Shown one piece after another: positions 2,300 to 43,667 of a stretch of 64,000 nt of DNA. Both the position numbers and the translations under genes were made by a program. The DNA lies in NCBI GenBank assembly GCA_004322215.1, contig SCSM01000016.1, forward strand, positions 62,001-126,000, given 5' to 3'. The notes under the pieces are model-generated. The model made no database searches and was not told the DNA's origin. It worked only from the letters and a program-made list of their open reading frames with translations. The DNA is from Bacteroidota bacterium (GTDB taxonomy: Bacteria > Bacteroidota > Ignavibacteria > Kapaibacteriales > UBA2268). How positions within the stretch are numbered: position 1 is the stretch's first letter; each line of letters starts with the position of its first letter.

Positions 2300-2459
2300 A
2301 AATTACAATGACAACTAAACTTCTATATAAAATAAGGTAGTTACTAATAGCAAATAGACTCTGTTTATGAACTCTACGGCTTAACCGAAGACTAAATCAA
2401 GGTGGTGGAAAGAAAATAAATTAAATTATTTAAAACTAAATATTAAGGAGGAATTAATT

Positions 2460-23972: not shown

Positions 23973-23992
23973 TTTATTATTGGAGAAAAATT

Positions 23993-26763: not shown

Positions 26764-27267
26764 TTACTCATCCTTCTCCTTCTCCACTACCAATAACACT
26801 TTATCAGAATCAACCTGCTCGCCTGCAGTGGCATTTACTTCTGTAACGATGCCTGATATTGAAGAATACATTGTGGTTTCCATTTTCATTGCTTCGATAA
26901 TGATTAATCCCTCGCCTTCTTCAACTTTTTGTTCCTTGTCCACTAATACTTTTACAATACTGCCGGGCATCGGGGGTTTGATTACTTGCTTATCACCAAG
27001 ATTTTTCTCATCTTCACCGTAAGATTTTTCTTCTGCTTTAACCTTTTCTAATGTGAAATTATTTCCATCAATATTTACGAAAAACCGGCTGTCATCCTCT
27101 GCCACATAAACATTGGATTTTTCATCTTTATTAATTATAGTAAAAACATTTGCTGATATAACTATTGAAGAAAATTCAATCTTTTCATTATTAATAAATA
27201 CAGATTGATTATCGTTTTGATTTTCAATCTTAATATCAAATTCTTTTTCTTTGTATTTCAATTGCAT
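26764..27267 (-). CDS. Biotin carboxyl carrier protein of an acyl-CoA carboxylase
   Basis: A 167-residue subunit. Residues about 95-165 are a biotinyl domain with the biotin-accepting Lys128 in EAMKMET, flanked by MPGSIVKVLVDKEQKVEEG and GIVTEVNATAGEQVDSDKVL. The first 90 residues are a beta-rich region like the BT-adjacent part of propionyl- or methylcrotonyl-CoA carboxylase alpha chains. The biotin carboxylase gene ends 16 nt upstream, so this is the detached C-terminal part of an MCC/PCC alpha chain. With the carboxyltransferase at 29805-31412 it completes a methylcrotonyl-CoA carboxylase. It is the last gene of the minus-strand catabolic cluster. Confidence 0.9.
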   Translation of the reverse strand: MQLKYKEKEFDIKIENQNDNQSVFINNEKIEFSSIVISANVFTIINKDEKSNVYVAEDDSRFFVNIDGNNFTLEKVKAEEKSYGEDEKNLGDKQVIKPPMPGSIVKVLVDKEQKVEEGEGLIIIEAMKMETTMYSSISGIVTEVNATAGEQVDSDKVLLVVEKEKDE

Positions 27268-27283
27268 AATTTCTTCCTGAATA

Positions 27284-28792
27284 TCATTTATATTGTCTTA
27301 AGCATATTTCCCAACCTCCTATTGTCTGCCATGGTGAACTTGGTTCACCGGTAGCATACTGTATATTATTCCCGTTCTTTTTCCTTTGACTCTCAAACAA
27401 AGCCGCTCCAATCAATGCTTTATTCAGTAATGTTGTATCATCATCAGGTTTAACTTTCATATTTTTATCTATGAAATCAGTAAATGTATTGCCATTGATA
27501 AATTCCTCATGCTCGAGGCATTTTGACATAAATCCGATTGATGTCTTCACACCAAGAATAACATTTTCCTTCAGGGCTATAAGCATCTTATTACGTGCTT
27601 CTTCACGTGTAGGAGCCCATACAATCAGTTTGGCAAGCACAGGGTCATAAAATACCGGAATATCAGCACCCTGGTAAATACCCGAGTCATAGCGGACACC
27701 TGGGCTAATCGGCACTTTAAGAAAAAGAATTTTCCCCGATGAGGGTATGAAATTATTATCGGGGTCTTCTGCATAAATTCTGCACTCGATTGCATGTCCG
27801 TTTTGTTTCAAATCTTTTTGCTTGAATGGCAGTTTCTCACCGCTTGCTATCTGAACCTGTAGTCTAACAAGGTCAATTCCCGTTGTCATCTCAGTTATCG
27901 GATGCTCTACCTGGATTCTTGCATTGACTTCGAGAAAATAAAAATTCTTGTTCTTATCTACAAGAAATTCCACAGTCCCAAGATTATTATAATGTGCAGT
28001 TTGTATTACTTTAACGGCAGTCTCACCCATCTTCTTCTGAAGTTCAGTATCCATGCCAGGAGATGGTGTCTCTTCTATTATCTTCTGATGACGTCTCTGT
28101 ATTGAACATTCACGTTCAAAAAGATAAACAGCATTTCCGAAATTGTCTGCTGCAACCTGGAATTCTACGTGCCTTGGAGCTTCGATATACTTTTCAAGAT
28201 AAACCTCATCGCTTCCGAAAGCAGAAAGTGACTCTCTCATGGCAGATTCAACTGAAGTTTTCAGTTCATCTTCACTTCTTACAATTCTCATTCCCTTGCC
28301 GCCGCCTCCGGCAGATGCTTTAATTAGAACGGGAAATCCCATTTCACTTGCAGATTTCTCAAATTCCTTAATATCTTTTGAACTACTCTTCATACCGGGA
28401 ATAACAGGAACTCCTGCATCAATCATTGTAACTCGCGACATTACTTTCGAACCGAGAAGCTTCATTGGTCCCGGTTTCGGTCCTATAAAAATCAGACCTG
28501 CATCACATACTTTTTGATTGAAATCTGAATTTTCAGCGAGAAATCCATAGCCGGGATGAATTGCATCACAGCCAGTATCTTTTGCAGTCTGAATAATTTT
28601 CTCCATATTCAGGTAGGATTGCAAAGCCGGGGGTGGTCCAATACAAACCGCTTCATCAGCAAGTTGAGTATGTAAGGCAGTCTTATCGGCTTCGGAATAT
28701 ACAGCCACTGTTCTTATTCCCATCTCTTTGCAGGAACGAATCACCCTGCACGCAATCTCACTTCTGTTGGCAACTAATATCTTTTTAATCAC
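27284..28792 (-). CDS. Biotin carboxylase subunit of acyl-CoA (probably methylcrotonyl-CoA) carboxylase
   Basis: This 502-residue ATP-grasp enzyme carboxylates biotin on the carrier encoded just downstream. The sequence shows KILVANRSEIACRVIRSCKEMG, HPGYGFLAEN, the ATP-binding glycine loop AGGGGKGMR (161-169), EVNARIQVEHPITEMTTG and the BC C-terminal domain. It is slightly longer than AccC (about 450) but lacks the biotinyl domain of fused MCC alpha chains. Its location after the MCC beta chain and the LiuC-like hydratase points to leucine catabolism rather than fatty-acid synthesis. The 182-bp gap before it is AT-rich without a gene. Confidence 0.92.
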   Translation of the reverse strand: MIKKILVANRSEIACRVIRSCKEMGIRTVAVYSEADKTALHTQLADEAVCIGPPPALQSYLNMEKIIQTAKDTGCDAIHPGYGFLAENSDFNQKVCDAGLIFIGPKPGPMKLLGSKVMSRVTMIDAGVPVIPGMKSSSKDIKEFEKSASEMGFPVLIKASAGGGGKGMRIVRSEDELKTSVESAMRESLSAFGSDEVYLEKYIEAPRHVEFQVAADNFGNAVYLFERECSIQRRHQKIIEETPSPGMDTELQKKMGETAVKVIQTAHYNNLGTVEFLVDKNKNFYFLEVNARIQVEHPITEMTTGIDLVRLQVQIASGEKLPFKQKDLKQNGHAIECRIYAEDPDNNFIPSSGKILFLKVPISPGVRYDSGIYQGADIPVFYDPVLAKLIVWAPTREEARNKMLIALKENVILGVKTSIGFMSKCLEHEEFINGNTFTDFIDKNMKVKPDDDTTLLNKALIGAALFESQRKKNGNNIQYATGEPSSPWQTIGGWEICLRQYK

Positions 28793-28974
28793 AATCTATA
28801 ATTTCCTTTTCTTTTTTACTTTAAGCAATTTTATATCAATAATTTTAAATTTATAATTTTCAATTTTTTAATACTTTACTTTCAACTTTATGAACTTTAT
28901 AAACTTTTTACATATAAAATCGTTAATCCTTGTTCTTAAATATTTTCTATAATCTTTTTTCTTTTTTCTATCTT

Positions 28975-29799
28975 CTATTTGCTCTTTCCTTTCTTTGAAA
29001 TCCACGAAGGAGGTCTCTTTTCGAGAAAAGCACTCATTCCCTCCTGCCCTTCAGGGCTAATTCTCAATTTTGCGATTAACTCAGCAGTATATTCAGTAAT
29101 TTCCGGAAAGTTCATTTGAGGAACTTTGAATATTAACTCTTTTACAGTCTTTATTGCTTCGGGACCATTTGAGAGTATCTGCTGAATTACTTCATTAACA
29201 GCTTTATCGAGTTCAGTATTTACAACTACCCTGTTCACTAATCCGATACTCATAGCTTTATGTGCATTTATTCTTTCACCGGTTATGAACAATTCGCGTG
29301 TGTTAGCATGTCCGATACGGTCAATGACAAACGGTGAAATGACTGCCGGCACCAATCCGATTTTCACTTCGCTCAATCCAAATGTTGCAGTATCTGCCGA
29401 TATTAATATATCGCAAACTGACATCAACCCAACACCACCGCCAATAGCAGGGCCGTTAACTCTTGCAATTGTCGGTTTCGAGTGTGTATATATTAGAAGC
29501 ATTAATTCAGCAAGTTTTAATGACTCCTCATAATTCTGGTCGTATGAGTATTTCATTACATCTTTCAGCCATTTCAGGTCAGCACCTGCACAAAATGTTT
29601 GACCGTTTCCGGTTAATACTATCACTCTTATATCTGTTTCATTTTTCAGCTTTTCGAATGCATCATATAATTCATATATGAGCGTATTATTTAAAGCATT
29701 GTGAACTTCAGGCCTGTTCAGTGTAATTATACATACAGCTCCCTGGTGTGAAAGTGATATTGTCGAATATTCGTGATGTAAATTCATCTTTTCTTTCAT
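28975..29799 (-). CDS. Enoyl-CoA hydratase/isomerase family, methylglutaconyl-CoA hydratase-like (LiuC)
   Basis: A 274-residue crotonase-fold enzyme. The oxyanion-hole segments are GQTFCAGADLKWL and NGPAIGGGVGLMSVCDI. The following FGLSEVKIGLVPAVISPFV is the form typical of 3-methylglutaconyl-CoA hydratases, which add water to give HMG-CoA in leucine breakdown. The gene lies 5 nt after the methylcrotonyl-CoA carboxylase beta gene, which makes the same product one step earlier, so context and motif agree. An alternative is a general short-chain enoyl-CoA hydratase. Confidence 0.82.
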   Translation of the reverse strand: MKEKMNLHHEYSTISLSHQGAVCIITLNRPEVHNALNNTLIYELYDAFEKLKNETDIRVIVLTGNGQTFCAGADLKWLKDVMKYSYDQNYEESLKLAELMLLIYTHSKPTIARVNGPAIGGGVGLMSVCDILISADTATFGLSEVKIGLVPAVISPFVIDRIGHANTRELFITGERINAHKAMSIGLVNRVVVNTELDKAVNEVIQQILSNGPEAIKTVKELIFKVPQMNFPEITEYTAELIAKLRISPEGQEGMSAFLEKRPPSWISKKGKSK

Positions 29800-29804
29800 A
29801 TATT

Positions 29805-31412
29805 TTACATTCTGAAAATGCCGTATTTTTGTTCGGGTATTGGTCTGTTTAATGCCATTGATATACCGAGGGCAAGAGCATTTCTCGTATCGAGCGGGTC
29901 AATAATCCCGTCATCCCACAATCTGGCACTTGCATAATATGGACTCGATTCAAATTCGTATTTATCAAGTATCGGTTTTTTAATCTCATCAATTTCTTTC
30001 TGAGTTAATGTTTTCCCGGACGCTTCCAACTGCTTGATTTTTACTGTTGCCAAAACTCCGGCAGCTTGTTCTCCGCCCATAACTGAAATTGTTGCTGTAG
30101 GCCACATCCATAACAAATTAGGATAATAACCGCGCCCGCACATTGCATAATTACCTGCCCCATTCGAACTGCCAACAATAACCGTGAACTTCGGTACTTC
30201 TGCATTTGCTACAGCATGTACAAGCTTTGCCCCATCTCTTGCAATCCCCCCATGCTCATATTTTTTTCCGATTATGAATCCGGTTATGTTTTGCAAAAAG
30301 ATTAATGGTATTTTTCTTGAAGTACATAATTCTATGAAGTGCGCCCCTTTCAAAGCTGATTCAGAAAAAATCACTCCGTTATTACCAAGTATTCCTACAG
30401 GATAACCCATGATTTTTGCAAAGCAGGTAATAAGTGTAGCTCCGTAATTTTCCTTGAACTCCTGGATTCTACTCCCATCAACGATTCTTGCAATCACTTC
30501 GCGAATATCAAATGGCTGTCGTATATTTTTCGGTACAATACCAAAAATTTCTTCAGGGTCAAGTTCCGGTTCTTCCGGCTCTTCCCTTCCAATGTCAAAC
30601 TTTTTTTGTTTGTTTAAATTCTCTACGATATTTCTTGTAATTTCAAGTGCGTGTTCATCATTTTGTGCAAGATGGTCTGATACACCTGAAATCTTGCAAT
30701 GAACATCCGCACCTCCAAGTTCTTCGTCGGTTACGATTTCACCTGTTGCAGCTTTGCATAATGGAGGACCGCCGATAAATATTGTCGCCTGGTTGCGAAC
30801 CATCACGGTTTCATCGCTCATTGCGGGTACATAAGCTCCTCCCGCTGTACATGACCCCATAACCACAGCAATCTGTGGAATTCTTTCTGCAGAAAGTCTC
30901 GCCTGGTTGTAAAAAATATTTCCGAAATGGTCTTTATCGGGAAATACTCCGTCCTGCAATGGAAGAAATACACCCCCGGAATCTACGAGATATATGCAAG
31001 GCAATTTATGCTGCATAGCAATCTGCTGTGCCCTCACATGCTTTTTCACTGTAATAGGATAATATGTACCGCCTTTGACAGTTGCATCATTAGCTACAAT
31101 CATACATTCCCTTCCCTTAATAACACCAACACCTGTTACTACTCCTGCAGCCGGTGCATCGTTATCGTACATATTGTATGCGGCGAATGGCATAACTTCG
31201 AGAAAAGGAGTATCTTTGTCACAAAGTAATTTTATCCTGTCGCGGACAAGTAATTTTTTCCTGTCGAGATGTTTCTGCCTTGCTTTTGGAGGACCACCCT
31301 GTTTGATTAATTCATATCTTTCTTTTAATTGTTTTGACAATCCGAGATTGAATTCCTTGTTTTCCTGGTATGCAGGACTCTTTGTTGAGATTTTTGATTT
31401 AAAACGATTCAT
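29805..31412 (-). CDS. Methylcrotonyl-CoA carboxylase beta (carboxyltransferase) subunit
   Basis: The 535 residues form a crotonase-like carboxyltransferase. [21 protein letters not shown] (split around residues 147-167) and [17 protein letters not shown] are hallmarks of the MCC beta chain. [16 protein letters not shown] and [14 protein letters not shown] are the acyl-CoA site, and [22 protein letters not shown] is in the C-terminal half. It transfers carboxyl from biotin to 3-methylcrotonyl-CoA. It is placed 21 nt after icmF and 5 nt before the hydratase. The biotin carboxylase and carrier lie downstream in the same cluster, completing the holoenzyme. Confidence 0.92.
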
Positions 31413-31433
31413 CTGATTTATTCCGATTTTTAT

Positions 31434-34400
31434 TTACATTCCTCTTCTGTATTTACCACCGATTTCATAAAGAACTTTTGTGATTTGTCCCATCGAAGCG
31501 AATTCAACTGTGTTCAGCAGTTCTTCAAATATATTTCCTTTTGTCAGGGCAACCTCTCGGAGTCTGTTCAATGCTTTTTCCAACCCTTCCTTATTCTTTT
31601 TCTGGAATGAATGAAGCTGTTTCAACCTTTCATTCTTCTCCTCATCTGTTGCTCTTGTGATTAACATCTTATCGTAAGGATTATCAGTGGTTTCCCTTAT
31701 GAATTTATTAACGCCGATTATCGGGTATTCCCCTGATTGTTTCAACGTTTCATAATACATAGATTCTTCCTGAATTTTCGACCTTTGGTACTGTGTTTCC
31801 ATAGCACCAAGTACACCGCCACGCCTTGAGATTCTCTCAAATTCATCGAGAACTGCTTCCTCAACCAAATCAGTCAATTCTTCCATAATGAATGACCCTT
31901 GGTTTGGGTTTTCATTCTTCAGCATACCGAATTCATTCGATAAAATCATCTGGATTGCCATCGAACGCCGGACAGATTCCTCGGTTGGAGTTGTTACTGC
32001 CTCATCATAAGAATTGGTGTGCAGTGAATTGCAATTGTCGTAAAAAGCAAGAAGCCCCTGCAAGGTTGTCCTGATGTCGTTGAAATCAATTTCCTGTGCG
32101 TGAAGAGAACGTCCCGAAGTTTGTATATGGTATTTCAGTTTCTGGCTTCTCTCATCTCCGCCATATTTGTATTTCATAGCAATTGACCATATTCTTCTCG
32201 CGACTCTTCCAATCACTGAATATTCCGGGTCCATTCCGTTTGAGAAGAAGAATGATAAATTCGGAGCGAATTCATCAACCGGAATTCCACGGTTCAGGAA
32301 ATATTCAACATAAGTAAATCCGTTCGCCAGTGTGAATGCAAGCTGTGTTATCGGATTGGCACCTGCTTCGGCAATATGATAGCCGCTTATGCTGAGTGAA
32401 TAATAATTCTTAATATTATTTTTTGATAGGAATTCCTGCAAATCACCAATCAATTTCATTGCAAAATCAATTGAAAATATACATGTATTCTGCCCCTGGT
32501 CTTCCTTCAGCATATCTGCCTGAACGGTTCCCCGCAATTTTCTGAATGTATCGAATTTCAATTTTTCTTTATCTTTTTCTGATAGTTTCGTTCCCTTTTT
32601 TTCAAGTTTCTCCAATTCACGTTTATATGCAACCATAAAGAAAAAAGCAACCATAATCGGAGCCGGGGCATTTATTGTCATTGAAACTGATGTCAGCGGG
32701 TCAGTCTGGTCAAATCCTTTTAGTAAAATATTCATATCATCAATCGTACAGATTGATACTCCACTTTCACCGATTTTTCCATATATGTCAGGAATTTCGC
32801 TTGGGTCTTCGCCGTAAAGTGTAATACCGTCAAAGGCAACCGAAAGTCTTTTTGCATTATCTGCCTGGCTAAGAAAATGGAATCGCTTATTTGTCCTTGC
32901 GGGTCCACCTTCACCTGCGAATTGTCTTTTCGGGTCTTCTGTTGTTCTTTTGAAGGGAAATACACCTGATGTATATGGGAAATTTCCCGGTAAATTCTCT
33001 TTATAGAAAAATCTTACCAACTCTTTCCACGATTCATAATGAGGTAGAGCTATTTTCGGTATTTTCGACCCCGATAAACTTTTATTATACAAGCTGATTG
33101 AAAATTCTTTTCCCTGTATATTGTATTTCATTTCATCCACCTGGAAACATTTCTTTTGCTCATCCCAATTGGAAAGATAAGAAACAGTTTCCGGTTCCAG
33201 CTTATTCCACTTCTCAGAAAATTTTTCTTTGAGCACTTTCATTGCAGATGAATCATCAATCTGTTTGATAGCTTCCCGAATAGCATAAGCATCATTTGCA
33301 AGATTTGCCTGTTCTTCAGCTTTATGTTTGTAGTTCCTTACCGCATCTGAAATTTCTGCAAGGTAATTGACTCGCTTGTTATCAATTAATCCGAAATCCT
33401 TTTCGAGTGAAACCGGCAACAGGTCGAGCATTTTTTTATTTGGCTTGTAATTTCCTTTTTTCTTGTCCTGGAGCAGATTCAGAAAATCCTTGAATAATTT
33501 ATTCACCCCGTGATTGTTAAACTGGTTACTACTCGTAGCATAAACAGGCAGTTCAACTTTTTCGAGAGGTGTTGTATGCGGAACTTTCAGTTGATGTGTC
33601 CTTATATAATGAATTTTCACTTCTCTCAAAGCATCTTCAGAGCCGATTTTTTCAAATTTATTGATTGCAATATAATTCGCCATATCGAGCATGTCTATCT
33701 TTTCAAGCTGCGTCGGAGCACCAAATTCGGCAGTCATTACATACATCGAATAATCGCTGATTTTTGTTACACTGCTGTCTCCCTGACCTATTCCACTTGT
33801 CTCGACAAAAATTATGTCAAATCCGAAAGACTTGAGTACAGATATTGAATCCTGAATTGATGCGCTAAGCTCATTAATACTCTCACGTGTGGCAAAACTT
33901 CTTAAATAAACCCTGTCATTATAAATTTGGTTATACCTGATTCTGTCTCCAAGTAAAGCACCGCCTGACCTGGTCTTCGAGGGGTCAACGGCAAGCACTC
34001 CAATATGTACATTCTCCGTGAAAGACATAAACCTGCCGATTATTTCATCAATCAAAGAACTCTTACCGCTACCGCCTGTTCCGGTAACACCAATGACTAT
34101 AGATATATTCTTGTCATATTGTTTGTAAAGTTTCCGGATTGATTCGTGTTCTTTTGCTTTAAATGTATTATTCTCAAAAAATGTAATTTGCCTGGCTATA
34201 TCAAAATGGTTTTTTATATCATTCTTTTTCAGGTATGAATCCGTTATTTTAAATTCTTTCTTAACTTTCTTTTTCCTGAATTCCTGAATTCGTTTGATGA
34301 TGTCATCAGCTATGCCGTCAATGCCGATTTTCTGCCCGTCAACTGCATGATAAAGCCGTTTTACTCCATATTTTTCGAGTGCTTCAATTTCCGATGGAAG

Positions 34401-34688
34401 TATTACTCCTCCGCCACCGCCAAATATCAACTTATCGGTTGCACCTAAACGCTTCAACTCATCAACAAGAAATCTGAAATATTCATTATGTCCTCCCTGG
34501 TATGAACTAATCAAAAGCGCATCTACATCTTCCTGGATAGCAACAGTTATTACTTCATTTACAGAACGGTTATGCCCGAGATGAATTACTTCAGCACCCC
34601 GTTTTTGCAGTAATCTCCTGTATATATTCACCGACACATCATGCCCGTCAAAAAGGGCTGTAGCTGTCAAAACCCGTATTTTATCCAT
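31434..34688 (-). CDS. icmF: Fused acyl-CoA mutase with G-protein chaperone (IcmF)
   Basis: A 1084-residue protein joins three parts. A cobalamin domain (about 1-135) has DGHDVS with the axial His16 and GGGGVILP. A MeaB-type GTPase has P-loop GVTGTGGSGKSS (200-211) and switch DPSKTRSGGALLGDR. The mutase TIM barrel starts at about residue 560 (RTNKRFHFLSQ, LSVAFDGITLYGEDPSEIPDIYGKIG, SVSMTINAPAPI). This order B12 domain, GTPase, mutase is diagnostic of IcmF, which interconverts isobutyryl-CoA and n-butyryl-CoA (some forms also act on isovaleryl/pivalyl-CoA) and repairs its own cofactor. It lies between an acyl-CoA dehydrogenase and the MCC genes, placing it in branched-chain acyl-CoA metabolism. 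Confidence 0.95.
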   Translation of the reverse strand: MDKIRVLTATALFDGHDVSVNIYRRLLQKRGAEVIHLGHNRSVNEVITVAIQEDVDALLISSYQGGHNEYFRFLVDELKRLGATDKLIFGGGGGVILPSEIEALEKYGVKRLYHAVDGQKIGIDGIADDIIKRIQEFRKKKVKKEFKITDSYLKKNDIKNHFDIARQITFFENNTFKAKEHESIRKLYKQYDKNISIVIGVTGTGGSGKSSLIDEIIGRFMSFTENVHIGVLAVDPSKTRSGGALLGDRIRYNQIYNDRVYLRSFATRESINELSASIQDSISVLKSFGFDIIFVETSGIGQGDSSVTKISDYSMYVMTAEFGAPTQLEKIDMLDMANYIAINKFEKIGSEDALREVKIHYIRTHQLKVPHTTPLEKVELPVYATSSNQFNNHGVNKLFKDFLNLLQDKKKGNYKPNKKMLDLLPVSLEKDFGLIDNKRVNYLAEISDAVRNYKHKAEEQANLANDAYAIREAIKQIDDSSAMKVLKEKFSEKWNKLEPETVSYLSNWDEQKKCFQVDEMKYNIQGKEFSISLYNKSLSGSKIPKIALPHYESWKELVRFFYKENLPGNFPYTSGVFPFKRTTEDPKRQFAGEGGPARTNKRFHFLSQADNAKRLSVAFDGITLYGEDPSEIPDIYGKIGESGVSICTIDDMNILLKGFDQTDPLTSVSMTINAPAPIMVAFFFMVAYKRELEKLEKKGTKLSEKDKEKLKFDTFRKLRGTVQADMLKEDQGQNTCIFSIDFAMKLIGDLQEFLSKNNIKNYYSLSISGYHIAEAGANPITQLAFTLANGFTYVEYFLNRGIPVDEFAPNLSFFFSNGMDPEYSVIGRVARRIWSIAMKYKYGGDERSQKLKYHIQTSGRSLHAQEIDFNDIRTTLQGLLAFYDNCNSLHTNSYDEAVTTPTEESVRRSMAIQMILSNEFGMLKNENPNQGSFIMEELTDLVEEAVLDEFERISRRGGVLGAMETQYQRSKIQEESMYYETLKQSGEYPIIGVNKFIRETTDNPYDKMLITRATDEEKNERLKQLHSFQKKNKEGLEKALNRLREVALTKGNIFEELLNTVEFASMGQITKVLYEIGGKYRRGM

Positions 34689-34729
34689 TTTAAAATTCCA
34701 ATTCCTTTACATTATTGTCAATTAAATTT

Positions 34730-35161
34730 TTATCTCGGAGCACTAGCGCATCCTTTTAAAAGACCTCCGAAAATATTCACTCCTTTTTTTTTTGCTTCTT
34801 TTGTAGACTTTTCATCGTATCTTATTACTTCGGCTTCATCTATTTCATTCACATTAATTGATATGTCACTGAAAAAATATTCAGATAAACTATCACTCAT
34901 AATACTTTCTCTAATCGAGAACAATGAATCAGTCGCAAACAGCATCGCTTTACCAACAATATTAACAGAATTTTCAACAAAACCGGCTCTATTCTCATCA
35001 AAATAATAGTAAACACCACTTTTTAATTTAATCCACACAAATTCATCATTTGCACTGAAAAATTTTGTTCTTCCTACAATTACTTTTTTTGTGGAATAAC
35101 ACCCTGCAATATTTGCTATAATGAAAATAAAAAATAAAATATGAAAAAATCTTATCTTCAA
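34730..35161 (-). CDS. Small lipoprotein, function unknown
   Basis: The 143-residue protein has a lipoprotein signal (FFHILFFIFIIANIAGC, Cys21) and a small beta-rich domain (ANDEFVWIKLKSGVYYYFDEN) that ends in a Lys-rich linker and GGLLKGCASAPR. No family is recognised. It sits between the acyl-CoA dehydrogenase and icmF on the same strand (34 and 41 nt gaps), an odd insertion of an envelope protein into a catabolic operon. Confidence 0.6.
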   Translation of the reverse strand: MKIRFFHILFFIFIIANIAGCYSTKKVIVGRTKFFSANDEFVWIKLKSGVYYYFDENRAGFVENSVNIVGKAMLFATDSLFSIRESIMSDSLSEYFFSDISINVNEIDEAEVIRYDEKSTKEAKKKGVNIFGGLLKGCASAPR

Positions 35162-35195
35162 TAGATATTATTTATAAATTTTGTTACATATCTGA

Positions 35196-36335
35196 TTACT
35201 TCAGCAAACTCCTCGAAATCACAAGCCGTTGAATTTCACTCGTTCCTTCATATATCTCTGTGATTTTTGCATCCCGATAATAACGTTCCACATTAAAATC
35301 CTCAGTATATCCATATCCACCGTGAATCTGAACAGCTTTCCTCGCACAATCCATTGCTACTTCGGATGCTTTTAATTTAGCAACTGCTGATTCAGTTGAA
35401 TAATTCAAACCCTTATCCTTCATCATCGAAGCTCTCCAGTTAAGCAGCCATGCGGCTTCGTATTCCATCCACATATCAGCCAGCATCCACTGAATTGCCT
35501 GGAAACTTGCAATCGGTTGGTCGAACTGGAATCTCTCTTTTGCATATTTCACCGAATCTTCGATACATGCTCTTGCTATTCCCAATGCCTGTGCAGCTAT
35601 TCCCAATCTGCCTCCGTCGAGTGTAACCATTGCTACTTTGAATCCTTTATTCAATTCCCCAAGTAGATTTTCTTTTGGAACGACACATTCTTCCAAAATA
35701 ATTTCTGCGGTTGAAGAAGATTTAATACCTAACTTTTTCTCTATTTTTCCGATTTTATATCCGGGTGTATCCCTGTCAACAATGAATGCACTGACACCCC
35801 TCGTTTTTTGGCTTGGGTCTGTTGATGCAATTAATACAAATACCTCGGCTTCTTTTCCGTTAGTTGCAAATAGTTTCGAACCGTTAAGTACCCATTTGTC
35901 ATCAATCAGTTTTGCGGTTGTCTTGGTCGCACCAGAATCCGAACCGGCTCCTGCTTCTGTCAATGAAAAACTGCCAATCTTTCTTCCTGAAAGTAAGTCC
36001 GGCAGATATTTCTGCTTTTGTGATTCCGTACCAAAGCGGTAAATCGGGTCACAAACAAGTGATGAATGTGCCGATACAATTACACCCGTCGAAGCACACC
36101 ATCGTGAAAGTTCCTCGACAGTCAGAAAATATGACACATAATCCATTCCTGCTCCACCGTATTCAGTAGGGTAAGCAACGCCCATCAATCCAAGTTCGCC
36201 TGCTTCTTTTATTATTTCGGCAGGATATCTGTGATTTTTTTCATTTTCTGATGCTACAGGGGCAATTTTTTCATGTGCAAACTTTGACACCATATCTTTG
36301 AGCATTTTCTGCTCTTCGGTTAACAAGTAATCCAT
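35196..36335 (-). CDS. Acyl-CoA dehydrogenase (short/branched-chain type)
   Basis: A 379-residue FAD enzyme that introduces a double bond into acyl-CoA and passes electrons to ETF. The FAD/substrate motif GSFSLTEAGAGSD and C-terminal GGYGYTEDFNVERYYRDAKI are intact. The catalytic base is Glu363 in YEGTSEIQR, as in butyryl-, isobutyryl- and 2-methylbutyryl-CoA dehydrogenases. True isovaleryl-CoA dehydrogenases carry the glutamate elsewhere and lack it here. It heads the minus-strand cluster that continues with icmF and the MCC genes. Substrate is likely a short or branched acyl-CoA. Confidence 0.9.
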   Translation of the reverse strand: MDYLLTEEQKMLKDMVSKFAHEKIAPVASENEKNHRYPAEIIKEAGELGLMGVAYPTEYGGAGMDYVSYFLTVEELSRWCASTGVIVSAHSSLVCDPIYRFGTESQKQKYLPDLLSGRKIGSFSLTEAGAGSDSGATKTTAKLIDDKWVLNGSKLFATNGKEAEVFVLIASTDPSQKTRGVSAFIVDRDTPGYKIGKIEKKLGIKSSSTAEIILEECVVPKENLLGELNKGFKVAMVTLDGGRLGIAAQALGIARACIEDSVKYAKERFQFDQPIASFQAIQWMLADMWMEYEAAWLLNWRASMMKDKGLNYSTESAVAKLKASEVAMDCARKAVQIHGGYGYTEDFNVERYYRDAKITEIYEGTSEIQRLVISRSLLK

Positions 36336-36605
36336 TGAGACCTCTCTTTATAATTAGTTGTTTTTTTTATTAATTAAGAAAAATATAATCTAAGTAATCT
36401 ATTTTTTGCTATTCTATTATTTCAAAGAGAACAAAATAACAATAGAATTTTAAATTACCAATACATATAAGAAATGTAACCATTTTGTTATTGTTATTTT
36501 TTTAACTTATTAATAAATTTAGTATTTTCATTTTTATAAGATTAGCTGAAATTTGGCAATAAAGTAATATTATTATGAATTAAAGAAATAAATCAGGAAT
36601 TAATT

Positions 36606-37766
36606 ATGGATATCAATCGAAATTTTACTGGTGAACAAATTCTTTTAAGGGATACTATCCGGAAATTTGCCGAAGAAGTCATCAAACCAAAAGCTCGTGA
36701 ATTAGATGAAAAAGAGGAATTTTCAGTCGAAATCACAAAACAAATGGCTGAGATAGGATTGCTTGCGTGTTTCTTGCCTGATAAGTATAATGGCTGCGGA
36801 TTGGATTATGTTTCTTACATTATGGTAGTTGAAGAATTAGCTCGTGTTGACGGCTCTCACGCCGCTACTATTGCTGCACACAATTCACTCGGTGCAGGTC
36901 CTTTATATTATTACGGCAATGAAGAACAAAAGAAAAAATATCTTCCGAAATTTGCTGATGGATACCTCTGGGGTTTCGGATTAACAGAACCCGAAGCTGG
37001 CTCCGACGCAGGGAACACTCAGACAACTGCCGTTCAGGACGGAGATTATTGGGTGCTTAACGGGGCAAAGATTTTCATTACAAATGCTTCAACCGATATT
37101 ACACTTGGCTCGACTGTTCTTGCTTGCACAGGCACAAAACCCGGTGGTAAAAAAGAATTGTCATGCTTCATAGTCGAAAACGGCACTCCCGGTTTCACAA
37201 CAAAAGCAATGAAAAACAAACTCATGTGGCGTGCCTCAAACACGAGTGAACTCTACTTTGAAGATTGCCGCGTACACAAAGATAATATGCTCGGTAAACG
37301 CGGTGACGGTTTCCACCAGATGCTCGGCACTCTCGACAACGGCCGGCTTTCGATTGCCGCTATGGGATTGGGAAATGCACAGGGTGCTTTTGAAACTGCC
37401 TTGAATTATGCAAAGACAAGAAAGCAATTCGGCAAGCCGATTTCAACCTACCAGGCAACTGCATTCAAGCTTGCCGACATTGACATGGGATTGGAAATGG
37501 CAAGAAATTACCTGTATGAAGTCTGCCGAATGTTAGACAGAAATGAAAATATTACGAAAGAAGGAGCAATTGCAAAACTCTATTGCTCAGAGCTTGCACA
37601 CATGGCTTCAAACCATTGTGTCCAAATTCACGGTGGCTATGGTTTAATGAAAGAATATGATGCAGAAAGATTTTACCGAGACCAGAAATTACTTGAAATC
37701 GGCGAAGGGACTTCCGAAATTCAAAGATTGGTTATATCGAGAATGATTGGCTGTTTTGATGTTTAG
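36606..37766 (+). CDS. Acyl-CoA dehydrogenase (second, divergent copy)
   Basis: A 386-residue acyl-CoA dehydrogenase related to, but clearly diverged from, the gene at 35196-36335. It has the FAD site GFGLTEPEAGSDAGNTQT, substrate-side LDNGRLSIAAMGLG, and catalytic Glu367 in GEGTSEIQR. The two dehydrogenase genes are divergent with a 270-bp AT-rich spacer that presumably holds both promoters. A thioredoxin-fold gene follows 14 bp later. Chain length is unknown. Confidence 0.9.
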   Translation: MDINRNFTGEQILLRDTIRKFAEEVIKPKARELDEKEEFSVEITKQMAEIGLLACFLPDKYNGCGLDYVSYIMVVEELARVDGSHAATIAAHNSLGAGPLYYYGNEEQKKKYLPKFADGYLWGFGLTEPEAGSDAGNTQTTAVQDGDYWVLNGAKIFITNASTDITLGSTVLACTGTKPGGKKELSCFIVENGTPGFTTKAMKNKLMWRASNTSELYFEDCRVHKDNMLGKRGDGFHQMLGTLDNGRLSIAAMGLGNAQGAFETALNYAKTRKQFGKPISTYQATAFKLADIDMGLEMARNYLYEVCRMLDRNENITKEGAIAKLYCSELAHMASNHCVQIHGGYGLMKEYDAERFYRDQKLLEIGEGTSEIQRLVISRMIGCFDV

Positions 37767-37780
37767 ATTTGATTATATAA

Positions 37781-38098
37781 ATGAATAAAATCGAATTAAT
37801 ATTTCAGTATTTTGATGGATGCCCCCATGCCGGTACATTAAGGCAAAATGTAAAAGCGGCTATTGAAAAATTTGAAGGAAGTATTGCTTACAAAGAAGAA
37901 TTAATCGAAACACAGGAACTCGCAATAATGAAAAAATTCAGAGGTTCTCCGACTTTATTAATAAATGGAGAAGATTTAGAGAATATGCCTCCTCCGGAAC
38001 ATCCTGCTCTTGCATGCAGGTATTATCCGAATGGAATTCCTTCTAAGGAAAAGATTATTGAGCGATTAAAAATAATTATGAATAGCCACTATCTTTAG
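37781..38098 (+). CDS. Small thioredoxin-fold protein (alkylmercury-lyase-associated type)
   Basis: The 105 residues fit a small thioredoxin-like family: strand IELIFQYFDGCPHAGTLR with a single active-site-like Cys followed by His, and FRGSPTLLINGEDL with the cis-proline context, then ACRYYPNGIPSKEKI. The family's reaction is not established; relatives occur near mercury-resistance genes. The last codons (SHYL and TAG) lie inside the first copy of a palindromic repeat at 38081-38104, so the repeat supplies the C terminus and stop. It is probably cotranscribed with the upstream acyl-CoA dehydrogenase. Confidence 0.6.
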   Translation: MNKIELIFQYFDGCPHAGTLRQNVKAAIEKFEGSIAYKEELIETQELAIMKKFRGSPTLLINGEDLENMPPPEHPALACRYYPNGIPSKEKIIERLKIIMNSHYL

Positions 38099-38251
38099 AT
38101 AGTGAAGCAGATTATTAATAGCCACTATCTTTAGATAGTGGATTGGTTTGAATATCTGGCATTGACTTTAGTCACTTATTTCAAAAGGATAAATCCATAA
38201 TTGTGATGATAGAACTTGACCACGACTTAAAAGTCCTGGCTATTCATAATA
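38075..38251. repeat. Hairpin-rich element with terminal inverted repeats (REP/BIME- or MITE-like)
   Basis: The ends TTATGAATAGCCA (38077-38089 region) and TGGCTATTCATAA (38237-38249 region) are inverted repeats. Inside are two direct copies of a unit with the palindrome CACTATCT-TT-AGATAGTG (38081-38104 and 38117-38140), plus two smaller palindromes, GACTTTAGTC and GACTTAAAAGTC. The layout matches clusters of paired hairpins mobilised by RAYT/IS200-type transposases. No transposase is in the window. The element fills the gap between the thioredoxin-fold gene and the HMG-CoA synthase gene. Confidence 0.6.
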
Positions 38252-38388
38252 ATCAATTTTTCAATTAATTAAACAACATTCTTAAAATACAGAATCATTT
38301 TTTATTTGCTTTGTTTTAAAAAAAGTATAAATTGTAATTCTTTTGAAATTGAAAATTTGATTACTAATAAATTTTAGGAGTTATTATT

Positions 38389-39435
38389 ATGGTAGGTATA
38401 GTTGGTTATGGTGCTTATGTGCCGGCGTTCCGAATCAAAGCAAGCACAATCGCAGACCAGTGGGGCGATGACATTGTCGCCATCGAGCGAGGTCTTCTGA
38501 TGAAGGAAAAAACGGTTCCCGGCAAAGATGAAGATACCATTACAATTTCAGTTGCAGCAGCTAAAAATGCTGTAAAACGTGCAGGTATAGACCCGCAAAA
38601 AATCGGAGCAGTTTATATCGGCTCCGAATCACATCCTTATGCAGTTAAACCATCAGGCACAGTACTTGTTGATGCTCTCGGCATTGGTCCAAATGTCCAT
38701 GTAGCAGATTTTGAATTTGCCTGTAAAGCAGGCTCGGAAGCGATGTTCGTTGCATACAGCCACGTCAAATCAGGCAATATGGATTATGCTATGGGAATCG
38801 GCTCTGATACATCACAGGGAGCACCCGGCGATGCACTCGAGTATTCTGCATCCGCAGGAGGTGCCGCATTTATTTTCGGTAAAGATAATGTCATTGCCGA
38901 AGTATTGCATACATACTCATATACAAGTGATACGGCAGACTTCTGGAGACGTGAATACCAGCATTATCCACGTCATGGCGGAAGGTTCACAGGCGAGCCT
39001 GCATATTTCAAGCATATCCTCGGTTGCGGGAAAACTTTGCTCGAAAAATCAAAGATGAAAGCAAGTGATTTTGCCTATGCTGTGTTTCACATGCCGAACG
39101 GGAAATTCCCACTGAAAGCCGGAGAAATTCTCGGTTTCAAAAAAGAGCAGATGGAACAGGGCTGGCTCGTTAATATTATGGGTAACACTTATTCCGGCTC
39201 TTCTCCGACCGGACTTACAGCAATCCTTGATGTAATTAAGCCCGGGGAGAAAGTATTCATGGTCTCATTCGGTTCAGGTGCTGGAAGTGACGGATTTATT
39301 TTTAAAGCTACTCCGAGAATCACTCAAGTACAGAATAAAGCACCGAAAACGAGAGATATGCTCAATGGTAAGAAAATTTATCTCGATTACGGCAAGTATG
39401 CAGCATTCAGAAGAAAAATAAAGTTCCTTGAATAA
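38389..39435 (+). CDS. Archaeal-type hydroxymethylglutaryl-CoA synthase
   Basis: A 348-residue thiolase-fold condensing enzyme of the archaeal HMGS type: GIVGYGAYVPAFRI start, IGSES (Glu80 region), catalytic Cys112 in FACKAGSEA, and His in VFHMPNGKFP. It interconverts acetoacetyl-CoA plus acetyl-CoA with HMG-CoA. A good ribosome site (AGGAG) precedes it. The next genes are a thiolase and a DUF35 protein. In archaea these three proteins form one complex that channels acetoacetyl-CoA, with DUF35 as a bridge. The leucine-degradation genes 7-12 kb away make HMG-CoA, so it may run in the cleaving direction. Confidence 0.85.
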   Translation: MVGIVGYGAYVPAFRIKASTIADQWGDDIVAIERGLLMKEKTVPGKDEDTITISVAAAKNAVKRAGIDPQKIGAVYIGSESHPYAVKPSGTVLVDALGIGPNVHVADFEFACKAGSEAMFVAYSHVKSGNMDYAMGIGSDTSQGAPGDALEYSASAGGAAFIFGKDNVIAEVLHTYSYTSDTADFWRREYQHYPRHGGRFTGEPAYFKHILGCGKTLLEKSKMKASDFAYAVFHMPNGKFPLKAGEILGFKKEQMEQGWLVNIMGNTYSGSSPTGLTAILDVIKPGEKVFMVSFGSGAGSDGFIFKATPRITQVQNKAPKTRDMLNGKKIYLDYGKYAAFRRKIKFLE

Positions 39436-39505
39436 TATGAATAAAAAAAATTAAAAATTAATGATTATGTTTTTTAGTTAGGTTTTATGGTTCAGATTAA
39501 ATAGG

Positions 39506-39574
39506 CAACACCATAGGTGTTGAACGTTTGTAACATATAAATTACTCGTCCAACACACAACACCGTAGGTGTTG
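39506..39574. repeat. Two REP-like hairpins in direct repeat
   Basis: CAACACC-ATA-GGTGTTG (39506-39522) and CAACACC-GTA-GGTGTTG (39558-39574) are perfect 7-bp-arm hairpins, both followed by AAC(G/A)TT. They occupy the 297-bp gap between the HMG-CoA synthase and thiolase genes. There is no T-tract, so they are less like terminators than like REP elements. They may stabilise the upstream transcript 3' end. Confidence 0.6.
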
Positions 39575-39732
39575 AACATTAGTAAGAGCTTAGTTATTTG
39601 AAAATTCACATATTAAAAATTTAAAATTAAAAATTTAAAATTGATGTTTATTAGAATATAATAATTATATGATAAAATGAACTTATAAAAAGAAAGTGAT
39701 ATGAAAATAAAAATTAATAAATGGAGGTTAAA

Positions 39733-40881
39733 ATGCGAGAAGTCGCAATAATCGGCGTCGGTATGACTAAATTCGGCGAGCTTTGGGGGCAGGGCATCAG
39801 GGATGTCTTTGCTGAAGCGGCACTCAAAGCCATCGAAGATGCCGGTGTTGACAAAATTGATTCTTTATATGTCGGCTGTATGTCCAGCGGACTTTATGCA
39901 TATCAGGAACATCTTGGTTCTGTGTGTGCAGACTACATTGGCCAAAAAGGCATTCCCGCCGCAAGAGTCGAGTCTGCCTGTGCATCGGGTGGAACATCTG
40001 TTAGGGCGGCATTTATGGAAGTTGCATCCGGAATGAGCGACATTGTTATGGCAGGCGGTGTCGAAAAAATGTGGGATGTCGAAGACGGAACTTTTGTCCT
40101 CGCAACCGCATCCGACCAGGAATACGAAGCATACAGCGGAGTTACGTTCCCTGGTCTCTATGCAATGATGGCACGTGCCTACATGGAAAAATACAAACTA
40201 ACTCGTGAAGAACTTGCACAAGTCCCGATTAAAAATCACAAGCATGCTGTACACAATCCGAATGCACAGTATCCTTTTGAATTGGATTTAAAAGGTGTTC
40301 TTAGTTCTTCTATGGTTGCTGACCCGCTGAGATTGATGGATTGCTCACCAATCACAGACGGTGCTGCTGCAGTCATTCTCTGTCCACTGGATAAGGCAAA
40401 GAAATATACAAAGCATCCTGTAAAAATTCGTGCAGTTGGTGCGGCTACTGGTCCGATTGCATTGCATGACCATGTTGACATGACAAAGCTGGATGCAGTT
40501 CGTATTGCCGGTGAGAGAGCATACAAAATGGCTCAGTTGAAGCCGAATGATATTTCCTTTGTCGAAGTTCATGACTGTTTCTCTATTGCCGAAGTAATAG
40601 TTGCCGAGGAACTTGGATTCTTTAAGTACGGTAAAGCTGGAAAAGCAATAGCAAACGGCGAAGCTACTTACGGAAGCAAAATCGTGATTAATCCAAGCGG
40701 CGGCTTGAAGGCGAAAGGACATCCTGTCGGTGCTACCGGTGTAGCTCAAATCATCGAATGTGTCGAGCAGTTGAGCGGCAAAGCCGGAAAGCGGCAGGTG
40801 AAAAATGCAAAATACGGTATGGCTCAGAACATGGGCGGTTCAGGTGGCAGTTGTGTTGTACATATATTGGAGGCAGTATAA
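39733..40881 (+). CDS. Archaeal-type acetyl-CoA acetyltransferase (thiolase)
   Basis: A thiolase of the archaeal/SCP2-like group, forming or cleaving acetoacetyl-CoA. It has catalytic Cys at residue 83 of the preferred start (ESACASGG), HDCFS, and [14 protein letters not shown]. An upstream ATG at 39721 overlaps a perfect ribosome site GGAGG (39723-39727). The ATG at 39733 is 5 nt after it and begins [15 protein letters not shown] as in relatives, so it is chosen (382 residues). The stop overlaps the DUF35 start by one base (TAATG), which shows translational coupling. It belongs to the HMGS-thiolase-DUF35 set. Confidence 0.88.
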
Positions 40882-41270
40882 TGGCTATTAGTCCGAGATA
40901 TACACGCGAAATTCCGCATCGTTACCGGCTCGAAGCCCAACAATTCGAATGCGGTGCAGTTACTCTTCCGAACAGGTACATCTGTCCCGATAACTGCTGC
41001 AAGAAATCAAAGAAAATCACTTTGAAAGGAAAAGGCAAAATCCTGACTTATACAATCATATACATTGCAAGTGACCAATACACCAGGGCAACACCATTTG
41101 CAGTTGCCGTAATCGAAACCGAAGAAGGAGCAAGATTGACGGCACAGGTTGTTGACTGCAACTTCGATGACTTGAAAATCGGTGCAAAGGTCGAACTCAT
41201 CTTCCGCAAAATCATGGAAGAAGGTGCCTCAGGCATCATAAACTACGGATACAAAGCAATCCTTGTGTAG
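40881..41270 (+). CDS. DUF35 OB-fold protein, bridge of the thiolase/HMGS complex
   Basis: The 129-residue protein has a small N-terminal zinc-ribbon-like part and an OB-fold (KGKGKILTYTIIYI, PFAVAVIETEEGARLTAQVV). In archaeal complexes DUF35 holds thiolase and HMG-CoA synthase together and shuttles the CoA arm. The ribbon reads ECGAVTLPNRYICPDNCC, so the first of the four usual cysteines appears to be missing and zinc binding may be weak. A longer frame from 40758 is only open sequence inside the thiolase gene. The ATG at 40881 follows GGAGG and overlaps the thiolase stop. A strong terminator follows at 41284. Confidence 0.82.
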   Translation: MAISPRYTREIPHRYRLEAQQFECGAVTLPNRYICPDNCCKKSKKITLKGKGKILTYTIIYIASDQYTRATPFAVAVIETEEGARLTAQVVDCNFDDLKIGAKVELIFRKIMEEGASGIINYGYKAILV

Positions 41271-41789: not shown

Positions 41790-42641
41790 ATGGAAAAACT
41801 TGGGATATATAATTTAAATGATGTTTATTGTGGTGATTGTGTTGATTTAATGCGTTCAATACCGGATTCATCAATTGATTTGGTTGTAACATCACCTCCT
41901 TATGATAAGGTTAGAGATTACAATGGCAATATAAATTTTAACTTACATAATACTGGAAAAGAGATTTATAGAATTTTGAAAGACGGTGGTATTGCTGTAG
42001 TCGTTATTCAGGACCAAACACAAAATTATGGTAAATCATTAACATCATTTAAAACTATTATTGATTGGTGTGATAATATTGGATTTAAGTTATTTGAAAC
42101 AGTAATATATCGGAAATATGGACCTGAGGGTGCATGGTGGACTCAGAGGTTCCGAGTTGACCATGAATATATGCCAATTTTTTTAAAAGGAGAAAAACCA
42201 AATTATTTTAACAAGGAATCTTTGAAAGTACCCTCAAAACACGGTGGAAAAGTAATGACAGGAAGCGGCGCAAGAAAAACTAATGGCGAAACACAAAAAA
42301 CAGTAACACGAGCTATCAATATGACAAAATGCAGAGGTACGATTTGGGATTATTTAATGGCAGGTGATAAAAATCCATTGAAAAGAAAACATCCTGCTGT
42401 GTTCCCTGATAAAATTCCTTATGATTTTATACAATGCTTTTGCCCGGAAGGTGGAATTGTCTTAGATCCTTTTGCTGGAAGTGGTTCAACTTTAGTCATG
42501 GCAAAAATTCTTGGACGTAATTTCATTGGTTTCGATATTGTACCTGAGTATTGTGAATTAGCAAAAGAAAGATTAAAAACTGAAACCAATGAAGACCAAA
42601 TTAGTCTATTTACTAACAAAATGGCTATTGAGTATATTTAA
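41790..42641 (+). CDS. Site-specific DNA methyltransferase (beta class, N4-cytosine or N6-adenine)
   Basis: The 283-residue enzyme has motif IV TSPPY at residues 34-38 near the N terminus and the SAM-binding motif I DPFAGSGST at 226-234 near the C terminus, followed by FIGFDI. This order (IV, recognition region, I) is the beta class. TSPPY occurs in both N4-cytosine and N6-adenine enzymes, so the base is open. The recognition sequence is unknown. It is followed after 1 bp by a reading frame broken at an A8 tract (42643-43667), the likely restriction or effector partner. Codon use is AT-rich, consistent with transfer. Confidence 0.88.
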   Translation: MEKLGIYNLNDVYCGDCVDLMRSIPDSSIDLVVTSPPYDKVRDYNGNINFNLHNTGKEIYRILKDGGIAVVVIQDQTQNYGKSLTSFKTIIDWCDNIGFKLFETVIYRKYGPEGAWWTQRFRVDHEYMPIFLKGEKPNYFNKESLKVPSKHGGKVMTGSGARKTNGETQKTVTRAINMTKCRGTIWDYLMAGDKNPLKRKHPAVFPDKIPYDFIQCFCPEGGIVLDPFAGSGSTLVMAKILGRNFIGFDIVPEYCELAKERLKTETNEDQISLFTNKMAIEYI

Positions 42642-42642
42642 T

Positions 42643-43667
42643 ATGGCTATCCAAGATTTATTAAAAGACAAAAATGAATTAATTGACTATAATCATCTAT
42701 GTAAAAAACATAGCTGGATACTTGAAAAAAATCATTGTTGTGTACTTAGTCCAGATAGTGATGGACTTTTATGTGGCCTTTTCATGTCAATGTATCGTGG
42801 CTGGAAAATTGTTGGCTTTTATGATGGAAAAGTTGCAATAATTAATAAAGATTATATAAATAATAATCCTATATTTTTGGATATAGAGATATTTAGGAAA
42901 GAAATTCGGAGTATAGGGCATCACATGCTATTATTAAACAAGAAACATATACCTGGCGAATGGACTAATTTCGATAATTGCATTCAGCCGAATAATCTGA
43001 GAAATTATGATGGAAAAAAAATTATCGGCTAAAATACCCATTGGCAACTATCCATTTGTTAATTAGCATTATTGCATTCAAATATAGAAATATTAAAATT
43101 CCTGAATCAGCAATCCCACCTCTTTTTTTTACTGATGGTGTTTTTAATGTTTTATTTAGCTATCCGGAAAATGTTTTGAATTGGTTACATTACTTAAGAA
43201 TCCATGAGGATTGGAATCCATTAAAACCAATATTTGAAAATGATGAGTATAGTGTTTTTACTTTAATGATGGAGATGGATAATTTTTTTCGCAGAAGAGA
43301 TGCCATTAGTATTAAAAATGAACGTGGTGATAGGCTAAGAATTTCAAATAAAGATGGCACTCCTGCAAATATAGAAAATATTAGAAATAGAAAATGCAGT
43401 ATAAATACCAGTGCTAAAACAAGAATAATTGAATTTATGAGAATTCTATCTGATTTAACAAAATGGGAATATAAAAATGAAAATTGGAGTTGCTGGGATG
43501 AGATGAAATATTACCAGTTTAAGAAAGGTGATTTCAAAGGAGATAAAAAAACTCTAACAATTCAGAATTTTATGGAATTTATAGAAAGAAAGCCATTATC
43601 ATGGGCTATGACAAGCGGAGATAATATCGAATACACATTAGAAGAGCCAGATAAATTGTTAAAATAA
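42643..43667 (+). pseudogene. Frameshifted partner of the methyltransferase, DHH-like motifs (phase-variable or broken)
   Basis: Two frames join into one protein of about 341 residues. The first (42643-43032) ends NYDGKKIIG after reading an A8 run at 43014-43021. The second is open through the run in the -1 frame (NYRLKYPLATIHLLISIIAF onward) to 43667. A ninth A would restore the frame. The N-terminal half has VLSPDSDG (Asp38, Asp40), IFLDIEI (Asp80) and SIGHHM (His93, His94). This spacing resembles DHH-family phosphoesterases and nucleases, although it matches no family with certainty. The start lies one base after the methyltransferase stop. Restriction, regulatory or anti-phage function is inferred only from this linkage. 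Confidence 0.6.

Follow-up and report, generated by a model that had tools for sequence, protein, structure and literature searches.

In archaea, a complex of 3-hydroxy-3-methylglutaryl-CoA (HMG-CoA) synthase, acetoacetyl-CoA thiolase and a DUF35 protein is the entry to isoprenoid synthesis, and channelling within it lets the downhill step pull the uphill one. The 2018 study of this complex reportedly already noted its presence, with all three parts, in some bacteria. The bacterial liu pathway of leucine degradation uses the HMG-CoA lyase LiuE, and the myxobacterial isovaleryl-CoA route runs through MvaS, LiuC and AibA/B/C, of which AibA/AibB, a decarboxylase of the glutaconate-CoA-transferase type, presumably belongs to family PF01144. 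Here we analysed a 64,000-nucleotide stretch of a Bacteroidota genome of the class Ignavibacteria (contig SCSM01000016.1, positions 62,001 to 126,000; hereafter the window), in which three genes at 38389–41270 (the trio) encode an archaeal-type HMG-CoA synthase, a thiolase and a DUF35 protein near genes of methylcrotonyl-CoA carboxylase (MCC). Judging from sequence comparisons, we think it rather probable that the trio complex serves leucine catabolism and not mevalonate synthesis, and that, where it stands in one row with MCC genes in other phyla, it most likely takes the place of HMG-CoA lyase.

The complex of Methanothermococcus thermolithotrophicus (6ESQ, 6ET9) supplies the best PDB match for all three window proteins, and the catalytic residues are kept; unlike it, the window trio sits in a bacterial genome with ispG and without HMG-CoA reductase, is linked to MCC and leucine genes, and belongs to a family in which the DUF35 zinc ribbon is partly or wholly lost. 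In the archaeal complex, synthase and thiolase bind CoA at a common site and do not release acetoacetyl-CoA (PMC12329534, citing the 2018 structure). As in the liu pathway, the window has MCC subunits and a methylglutaconyl-CoA hydratase-like gene, whereas only one of the 29 MCC-linked genomes examined outside the window's family has the lyase, and in the window's own genome its gene is located elsewhere. The myxobacterial route likewise puts an HMG-CoA synthase and a LiuC-type hydratase to use, but the window's genome lacks the AibA/B family PF01144 and its synthase is of the archaeal TIGR00748 type. The benzoylsuccinyl-CoA thiolase BbsAB, found among the PDB matches of the window proteins, combines a thiolase fold with a DUF35 partner in degradation, and the steroid aldolases Sal and Ltp2 are DUF35–thiolase complexes acting as retro-aldol enzymes in degradation (PMC12329534). 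These three systems have no HMG-CoA synthase subunit and act on other substrates; they are precedents for DUF35–thiolase complexes in catabolism.

The trio in the window

The three genes lie on the plus strand. The synthase (348 aa, 38389–39435) scored 501.9 bits against the NCBIfam model TIGR00748 (HMG_CoA_syn_Arc, cut-off 353.35) and 517.4 bits against NF003274 (cut-off 244), and the acetoacetyl-CoA thiolase of the archaeal complex type (386 aa, 39721–40881) scored 530 bits against PRK06064 (cut-off 420), while at 543 bits it fell short of the equivalog NF053570 (cut-off 600). The third gene encodes a DUF35 scaffold protein (PF01796, 129 aa, 40881–41270). The best PDB matches were chains of one and the same complex, namely 6esq_I for the synthase (E-value 1e-127), 6esq_A for the thiolase (2.4e-118) and 6esq_E for the DUF35 protein (5e-29). 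The synthase stop and the thiolase start are 285 bases apart, and base 40881 is common to the thiolase stop and the DUF35 start. The gene order and one-base overlap given by an earlier reading of the window made from the letters alone (the sequence-only reading) thus agree with the coordinates and with the family and PDB matches.

Residue conservation was counted in alignments of 120 related loci (4 of them duplicates) plus the window, with an archaeal protein added to the synthase set and partial rows removed beforehand (1 synthase, 9 thiolase). Glu80, Cys112 and His234 of the synthase were kept in 121 of 121 rows, and Cys87, His284 and His334 of the thiolase in 112 of 112 rows; we take these to be the catalytic residues. 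Because the PDB matches converge on one complex and these residues are invariant, the trio looks competent and, as far as sequence can tell, is truly of archaeal type, not one that resembles it by chance. The folds of the three proteins are taken as settled on account of the sequence matches to the solved complex. The proteins would then form a complex, and the trio is probably co-transcribed.

The DUF35 protein of the window has an incomplete four-cysteine zinc ribbon, and 32 of the 110 DUF35 rows fail the pattern used. In the window's family, these cysteines are partly or wholly lost in L065, L066, L068, L069, L070, L241, L243, L244 and L246 (locus handles of the alignment), while the remaining protein is conserved, and many other DUF35 proteins keep them. 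Given the number of rows that fail the pattern, an intact zinc ribbon may not be a defining trait of the archaeal-type DUF35.

Some small features surround the trio. Two copies of a short palindromic repeat, CCACTATCTTTAGATAGTG, lie upstream of the synthase (38075–38141), and two copies of the repeat CAACACC(A/G)TAGGTGTTG lie between synthase and thiolase (39506–39596). An open reading frame (ORF) of 105 residues without a Pfam match (37781–38098) precedes the trio, and a 99-residue ORF occupies the equivalent place in L009, L010 and L061.

Linkage of the trio to MCC genes

The MCC genes of the window are on the minus strand. They comprise the biotin carboxyl carrier subunit (26764–27267, Biotin_lipoyl) and the biotin carboxylase subunit (27284–28792, accC family), both assigned to MCC from context, a LiuC-like enoyl-CoA hydratase resembling methylglutaconyl-CoA hydratase (28975–29799, ECH family), whose specificity is also inferred from context, and an MCC-type carboxyltransferase (beta, 29805–31412) with MCC beta PDB matches. 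The cluster runs on through IcmF, a fused isobutyryl-CoA mutase/GTPase (31434–34688, minus strand; NF045497, 1585 bits, cut-off 1500), and the acyl-CoA dehydrogenases ACD1 (35196–36335, minus strand) and ACD2 (36606–37766, plus strand) up to the trio, spanning 26764–41270. The carboxyltransferase scored 733 and 721 bits against MCC beta chains, compared with 433 bits against geranyl-CoA carboxylase and at most 276 bits against typical propionyl-CoA carboxylases, and equally good matches exist under other names: the top match 9tps (739 bits) is called 'propionyl CoA carboxylase beta subunit', and 4q0g (702 bits) was deposited as 'probable acetyl-/propionyl-CoA carboxylase AccD1'. By these scores, its predicted type is methylcrotonyl-CoA carboxylase. 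The best NCBIfam models for the hydratase were PRK07468 and gamma-carboxygeranoyl-CoA hydratase, both under cut-off. Hence, of the MCC and methylglutaconyl-CoA hydratase-like genes that the sequence-only reading had placed at 26764–31412, the former are borne out in type by the beta subunit scores and the latter by context. ACD1 is divergent from ACD2 and is syntenic in relatives; its best PDB matches are short-chain-type acyl-CoA dehydrogenases, and isovaleryl-CoA dehydrogenases score lower. ACD2 (Pfam Acyl-CoA_dh) lies upstream of the trio with the 105-residue ORF between, and the order of ACD2 and trio is repeated in several relatives.

A contig scan found synthase relatives in at least 550 records, of which the best 80 were kept as loci; the record titles name Ignavibacteria, Kapabacteria, Krumholzibacteriia, Gemmatimonadota, Coatesbacteria, Zixibacteria, Aminicenantes, Acidobacteria and others. 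An MCC beta gene of more than 55% identity was present in at least 35 of the 80 loci, a lower bound given that many stretches are short, and in 39 of 120 once chosen additional loci were included. In 29 of the 35 MCC-linked loci, mainly from Aminicenantes, Zixibacteria and Coatesbacteria, synthase, thiolase, DUF35 and MCC beta follow in this order on one strand, and in most of them MCC beta is in turn followed by hydratase, biotin carboxylase and carrier. Median gaps measured between BLAST-hit ends in these 29 loci were 13, 21 and 100 bases, and 20 bases to the hydratase where present, with outliers up to 2.3 kb, including two DUF35–MCC gaps of ∼2 kb (L123 and L136). The remaining six loci are five from the window's family and L101 (Planctomycetales), where MCC genes on the opposite strand flank the trio on both sides. 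In the window's family, MCC beta, IcmF, ACD1, ACD2 and trio occur together in L061, L066, L068, L069, L072, L231, L241 and L249, and ACD1, ACD2 and trio occur in stretches without MCC in L070, L243, L244 and L248; part of this family thus departs from the same-strand order and has a divergent trio/MCC arrangement. On a quick synthase tree of 117 rows, 74 of them scored for MCC linkage, the linkage changed 11 times by parsimony, with at least four changes on starred branches. Because of these repeated changes and the family's own arrangement, the association of trio and MCC is unlikely to be one inherited accident.

In two Zixibacteria loci (L089 and L093), the genes directly upstream of the trio encode a protein resembling leucine dehydrogenase and a butyrate kinase (508 bits, cut-off 289); L102 carries the dehydrogenase alone. 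The best named PDB matches of this dehydrogenase are leucine dehydrogenases (293, 292, 290 and 273 bits); in NCBIfam its only match is tryptophan dehydrogenase, below cut-off. In two further loci, L094 (10001–13431) and L133 (2905–6330), a LiuC-like hydratase directly follows the trio and neither genome has an MCC beta match, which possibly reflects another route through methylglutaconyl-CoA.

Lyase, reductase and acetoacetate enzymes in trio genomes

The window's genome (G000; 4.2 Mb, 96.7% complete) encodes a single PF00682 protein, and this is an HMG-CoA lyase by model NF004283 (269 bits, cut-off 246), in agreement with its PDB match. Its gene lies on another contig (C26), away from the MCC genes and adjoining a gene of the isocitrate/isopropylmalate dehydrogenase family. 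A PF00368 search of this genome gave no HMG-CoA reductase candidate. No match was found in it to the CoA-transferase family PF01144, and its sole acetoacetyl-CoA synthetase match (279.6 bits) is below the cut-off of 520.9; among 14 control genomes, seven likewise have sub-cut-off matches and none exceeds the cut-off. Since neither enzyme was recognised, free acetoacetate from the lyase would have no recognised return to acetyl-CoA in this genome, and another ligase or transferase could re-activate it. Searches of the same genome found no 2-isopropylmalate synthase, the lyase being its only PF00682 protein, and no ketol-acid reductoisomerase.

Genomes were checked for 50 of the 80 loci, a non-random choice in which longer records and those with MCC linkage were preferred. 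They comprise 29 genomes that are MCC-linked and not of the window's family (L101 and 28 in which the genes follow on one strand), five of the window's family and 16 others. The 29 same-strand loci and these 29 genomes are thus overlapping and not identical sets. An HMG-CoA lyase was found in one of the 29 (G093), four of the five and three of the 16; the contrast of 1/29 with 7/21 gives p = 0.007, uncorrected for kinship. Among the 29, the five whose records bear the title 'chromosome' (L088, L097, L100, L105 and L126) all lack a lyase. Scans of ten further PF00682 proteins, of which eight belong to the 29 genomes, gave no match to the lyase model at E 1e-30; these proteins are LeuA, homocitrate- or isopropylmalate-synthase-like, or 4-hydroxy-2-oxovalerate-aldolase-like. 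The remaining PF00682 matches were assessed from their E-values and the lengths of their open frames, with BLAST added for those that had a locus; those judged in this way among the 29 were L146, L167, L168, L171, L174 and three lacking a locus. In one genome of the window's family (G031, 98% complete, L069), the trio adjoins MCC and no lyase is present. Moreover, when the lyase of the window's genome and two reductases served as queries, no match was found in any of the 80 stretches, and no match to this lyase stood beside MCC in nine stretches (six from trio-less relatives, three trio-bearing), which gives no trio-for-lyase swap. The lack of a trio in G001 may be an assembly gap, because its contig ends inside ACD1.

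HMG-CoA reductase had no match in 24 of the 29 genomes, in any of the five of the window's family or in 13 of the 16 others, and hence in 42 of the 50; the eight matches comprise three of 49–60 bits and five above 320 bits, and those in the 16 are all strong. The weak ones (E 1e-13 to 1e-16) are from Aminicenantes with an MCC-linked trio (L180, L181 and L182; G104, G084 and G109). Trio and reductase occur together in relatives G008, G020, G033 and G034; in G020 and G033 (L141 and L143) the reductase frames, 747 and 757 aa long, carry a C-terminal extension that looks kinase-like by eye. PF01144 was matched in four of the 29 and in none of the other 22 genomes including the window's, so that it is absent from 47 of 51. 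Acetoacetyl-CoA synthetase was above cut-off in none of the 29, none of the five and two of the 16 (873 and 906 bits), these being the two of all 51. Ketol-acid reductoisomerase, sought as a marker of leucine synthesis, exceeded the Pfam cut-off in 15 of 51 genomes, three at 219–231 bits and twelve at 127–160 bits; the top three are also those with the strongest PF00682 matches, which are LeuA by scan in G091 and G103, the third being the unscanned G090. In most of the 29 genomes, the trio is the only outlet for HMG-CoA seen by these searches.

Proposed mechanism and evidence against it

We lean towards a lyase-free leucine pathway present across several bacterial phyla, in which the complex would run backwards, converting HMG-CoA and two CoA to three acetyl-CoA with no free acetoacetate and with no ATP or succinyl-CoA spent. 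HMG-CoA from the hydratase would enter the synthase in reverse (HMG-CoA + CoA → acetyl-CoA + acetoacetyl-CoA + water), and the thiolase would receive acetoacetyl-CoA through the common CoA site and cleave it to two acetyl-CoA (net, HMG-CoA + 2 CoA → 3 acetyl-CoA). On its own, the reversed synthase step would run uphill, since it forms a thioester from a carboxylate, and it would be pulled by the exergonic thiolysis. Compared with the lyase route, the energy for re-activating acetoacetate with ATP or succinyl-CoA would be saved. Direction, channelling and energetics are thus what we infer. In the window's genome, where the lyase is present, the trio may act as a second exit ending in acetyl-CoA.

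Several observations weigh against this reading. HMG-CoA synthase is generally regarded as irreversible. A separate lyase is encoded in the window's genome, which rules out the trio as its sole lyase replacement and makes a parallel role likelier there. The sequence-only reading had proposed that the trio cleaves HMG-CoA from leucine in place of the lyase; the 29 same-strand MCC loci and the 28 of 29 genomes without lyase favour this, but the real lyase of the window's genome makes the stand-in role doubtful there. The same reading had held that a separate lyase co-regulated with MCC would speak against it, and of this one half was found, as the lyase exists but lies away from the MCC genes. 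The genomes were picked by us from the 80 loci, and the completeness of the locus-derived ones is not stated. A reductase above the Pfam cut-off occurs in five of the 29, two strong (363 and 346 bits) and three weak. Three loci of the window's family (L063, L065 and L246) show neither MCC nor ACD1/ACD2 in the stretch around their trio. Across the class, in a sample of 275 genomes, the trio is present in 38, a lyase above cut-off in 51 and both in 15; the lyase is thus found in 15 of 38 trio genomes and 36 of 237 others, more than expected (p = 0.001, uncorrected for kinship). Trio and lyase were thus not found to exclude each other in the class sample and, because the overlap exceeds expectation, the trio is not a general lyase replacement within the class. 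MCC presence is not scorable class-wide, as the query also matches carboxylases at ∼50% identity in most of the class.

Also on this side, nine of the 51 trio genomes have no MCC beta of at least 57% identity (eight have no match, one a match at 49%), and five of the nine fall in one Gemmatimonadota/Acidobacteria clade of the synthase tree. Elsewhere in the class, outside the window's family, trios lie in stretches without MCC and often adjoin atuA and a small partner gene. From these nine genomes and the atuA-linked trios it follows that the trio has at least one other use. AtuA has, to our knowledge, no settled role, and its linkage hints at a step near HMG-CoA-like intermediates. In L218, a family scan assigned gene and partner to PF07287 and PF23544; by BLAST, atuA-like genes occur close to the trio in 17 loci, 16 of them distinct and 14 from the class sample, including L218 (12339–14002), L222, L221, L232 and L139; most are within 4 kb and the farthest is at 8.4 kb. 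For unlinked trios of the Gemmatimonadota and Krumholzibacteria clades, no clear conserved neighbour was found.

Alternative explanations

The same genes could be read in the forward direction, with the trio making HMG-CoA, the hydratase dehydrating it, MCC in reverse decarboxylating methylglutaconyl-CoA and an acyl-CoA dehydrogenase in reverse yielding isovaleryl-CoA for iso-fatty acids or leucine. Such anabolic use would link the identical gene set, the synthase step is favoured in this direction, and since neither 2-isopropylmalate synthase nor ketol-acid reductoisomerase was found in the window's genome, its leucine or isovalerate must come from elsewhere. The missing synthesis genes are just as consistent with uptake of branched-chain amino acids, the MCC reaction is an ATP-driven carboxylation, and leucine-dehydrogenase-like and kinase genes adjoin the trio in the two Zixibacteria loci. 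The forward route of the myxobacterial type, which the sequence-only reading had offered as its second option, is weakened because the AibA/AibB family is absent from the window's genome, as from most trio genomes, which leaves the variant through reversed MCC; we consider it unlikely. An unrelated CoA chemistry, such as acyl transfer tied to the breakdown of terpenes or isoprenoid acids, with the leucine gene adjacency secondary, would accommodate the trios beside atuA and its partner and the nine genomes without a close MCC. The catalytic residues are invariant in every retained row, though, and the nearest solved relative is an HMG-CoA complex, so that we rate this chemistry as quite improbable.

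An acetoacetate (ketone-body) cycle, in which the trio makes HMG-CoA and a separate lyase frees acetoacetate to be excreted or reduced, draws on the presence of both trio and lyase in the window's genome and in the 15 class genomes, and on the missing means of re-activation in the former. The lyase of that genome is on a different contig from the trio, and nearly all of the MCC-linked genomes outside the family have none, which leaves this cycle rather remote. Use of the trio as the start of a mevalonate pathway would match its archaeal complex type and the four relatives where a reductase accompanies it, yet a reductase match is lacking in 42 of the 50 trio genomes. The window has ispG at 9801–10880 (TIGR00612, 441 bits, cut-off 280), where the sequence-only reading had placed it, and the reductase that this reading regarded as contrary evidence was looked for in the window's genome and not found. 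The lack of a reductase rules out a mevalonate role there; unless an unrelated or unassembled reductase exists, this reading is already contradicted for that genome, and overall we hold it to be very improbable. Leucine catabolism through the trio complex is hence what we retain as the favoured function.

Other genes of the window

Just 3′ of the trio lie a DNA N4/N6 methyltransferase gene (PF01555) and two small ORFs (41790–43667), the one at 43041–43667 without a Pfam match; the set is possibly a restriction–modification system. Far upstream, an HNH-nuclease gene is followed by a caspase-domain (Peptidase_C14) gene (1592–3920), a pairing that may be a defence or conflict system. Two pairs of small ORFs (23718–24211 and 26144–26714) look toxin–antitoxin-like by eye, in a stretch otherwise poor in long ORFs.

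Implications

In open-access literature, covered by titles and the openings of abstracts and with most subscription journals outside, we found no earlier description of the trio in leucine catabolism. The novelty would thus be one of known parts in a setting not found described, an archaeal complex apparently attached to leucine catabolism. If the proposal is true, the coupling known from archaea works in the other direction as well, and an enzyme held to be irreversible would be reversible in context. It would also explain why bacteria without HMG-CoA reductase carry an archaeal-type HMG-CoA synthase, and uncultured bacteria that are annotated as makers of HMG-CoA, or as being without the last step of leucine degradation, would have been misread.

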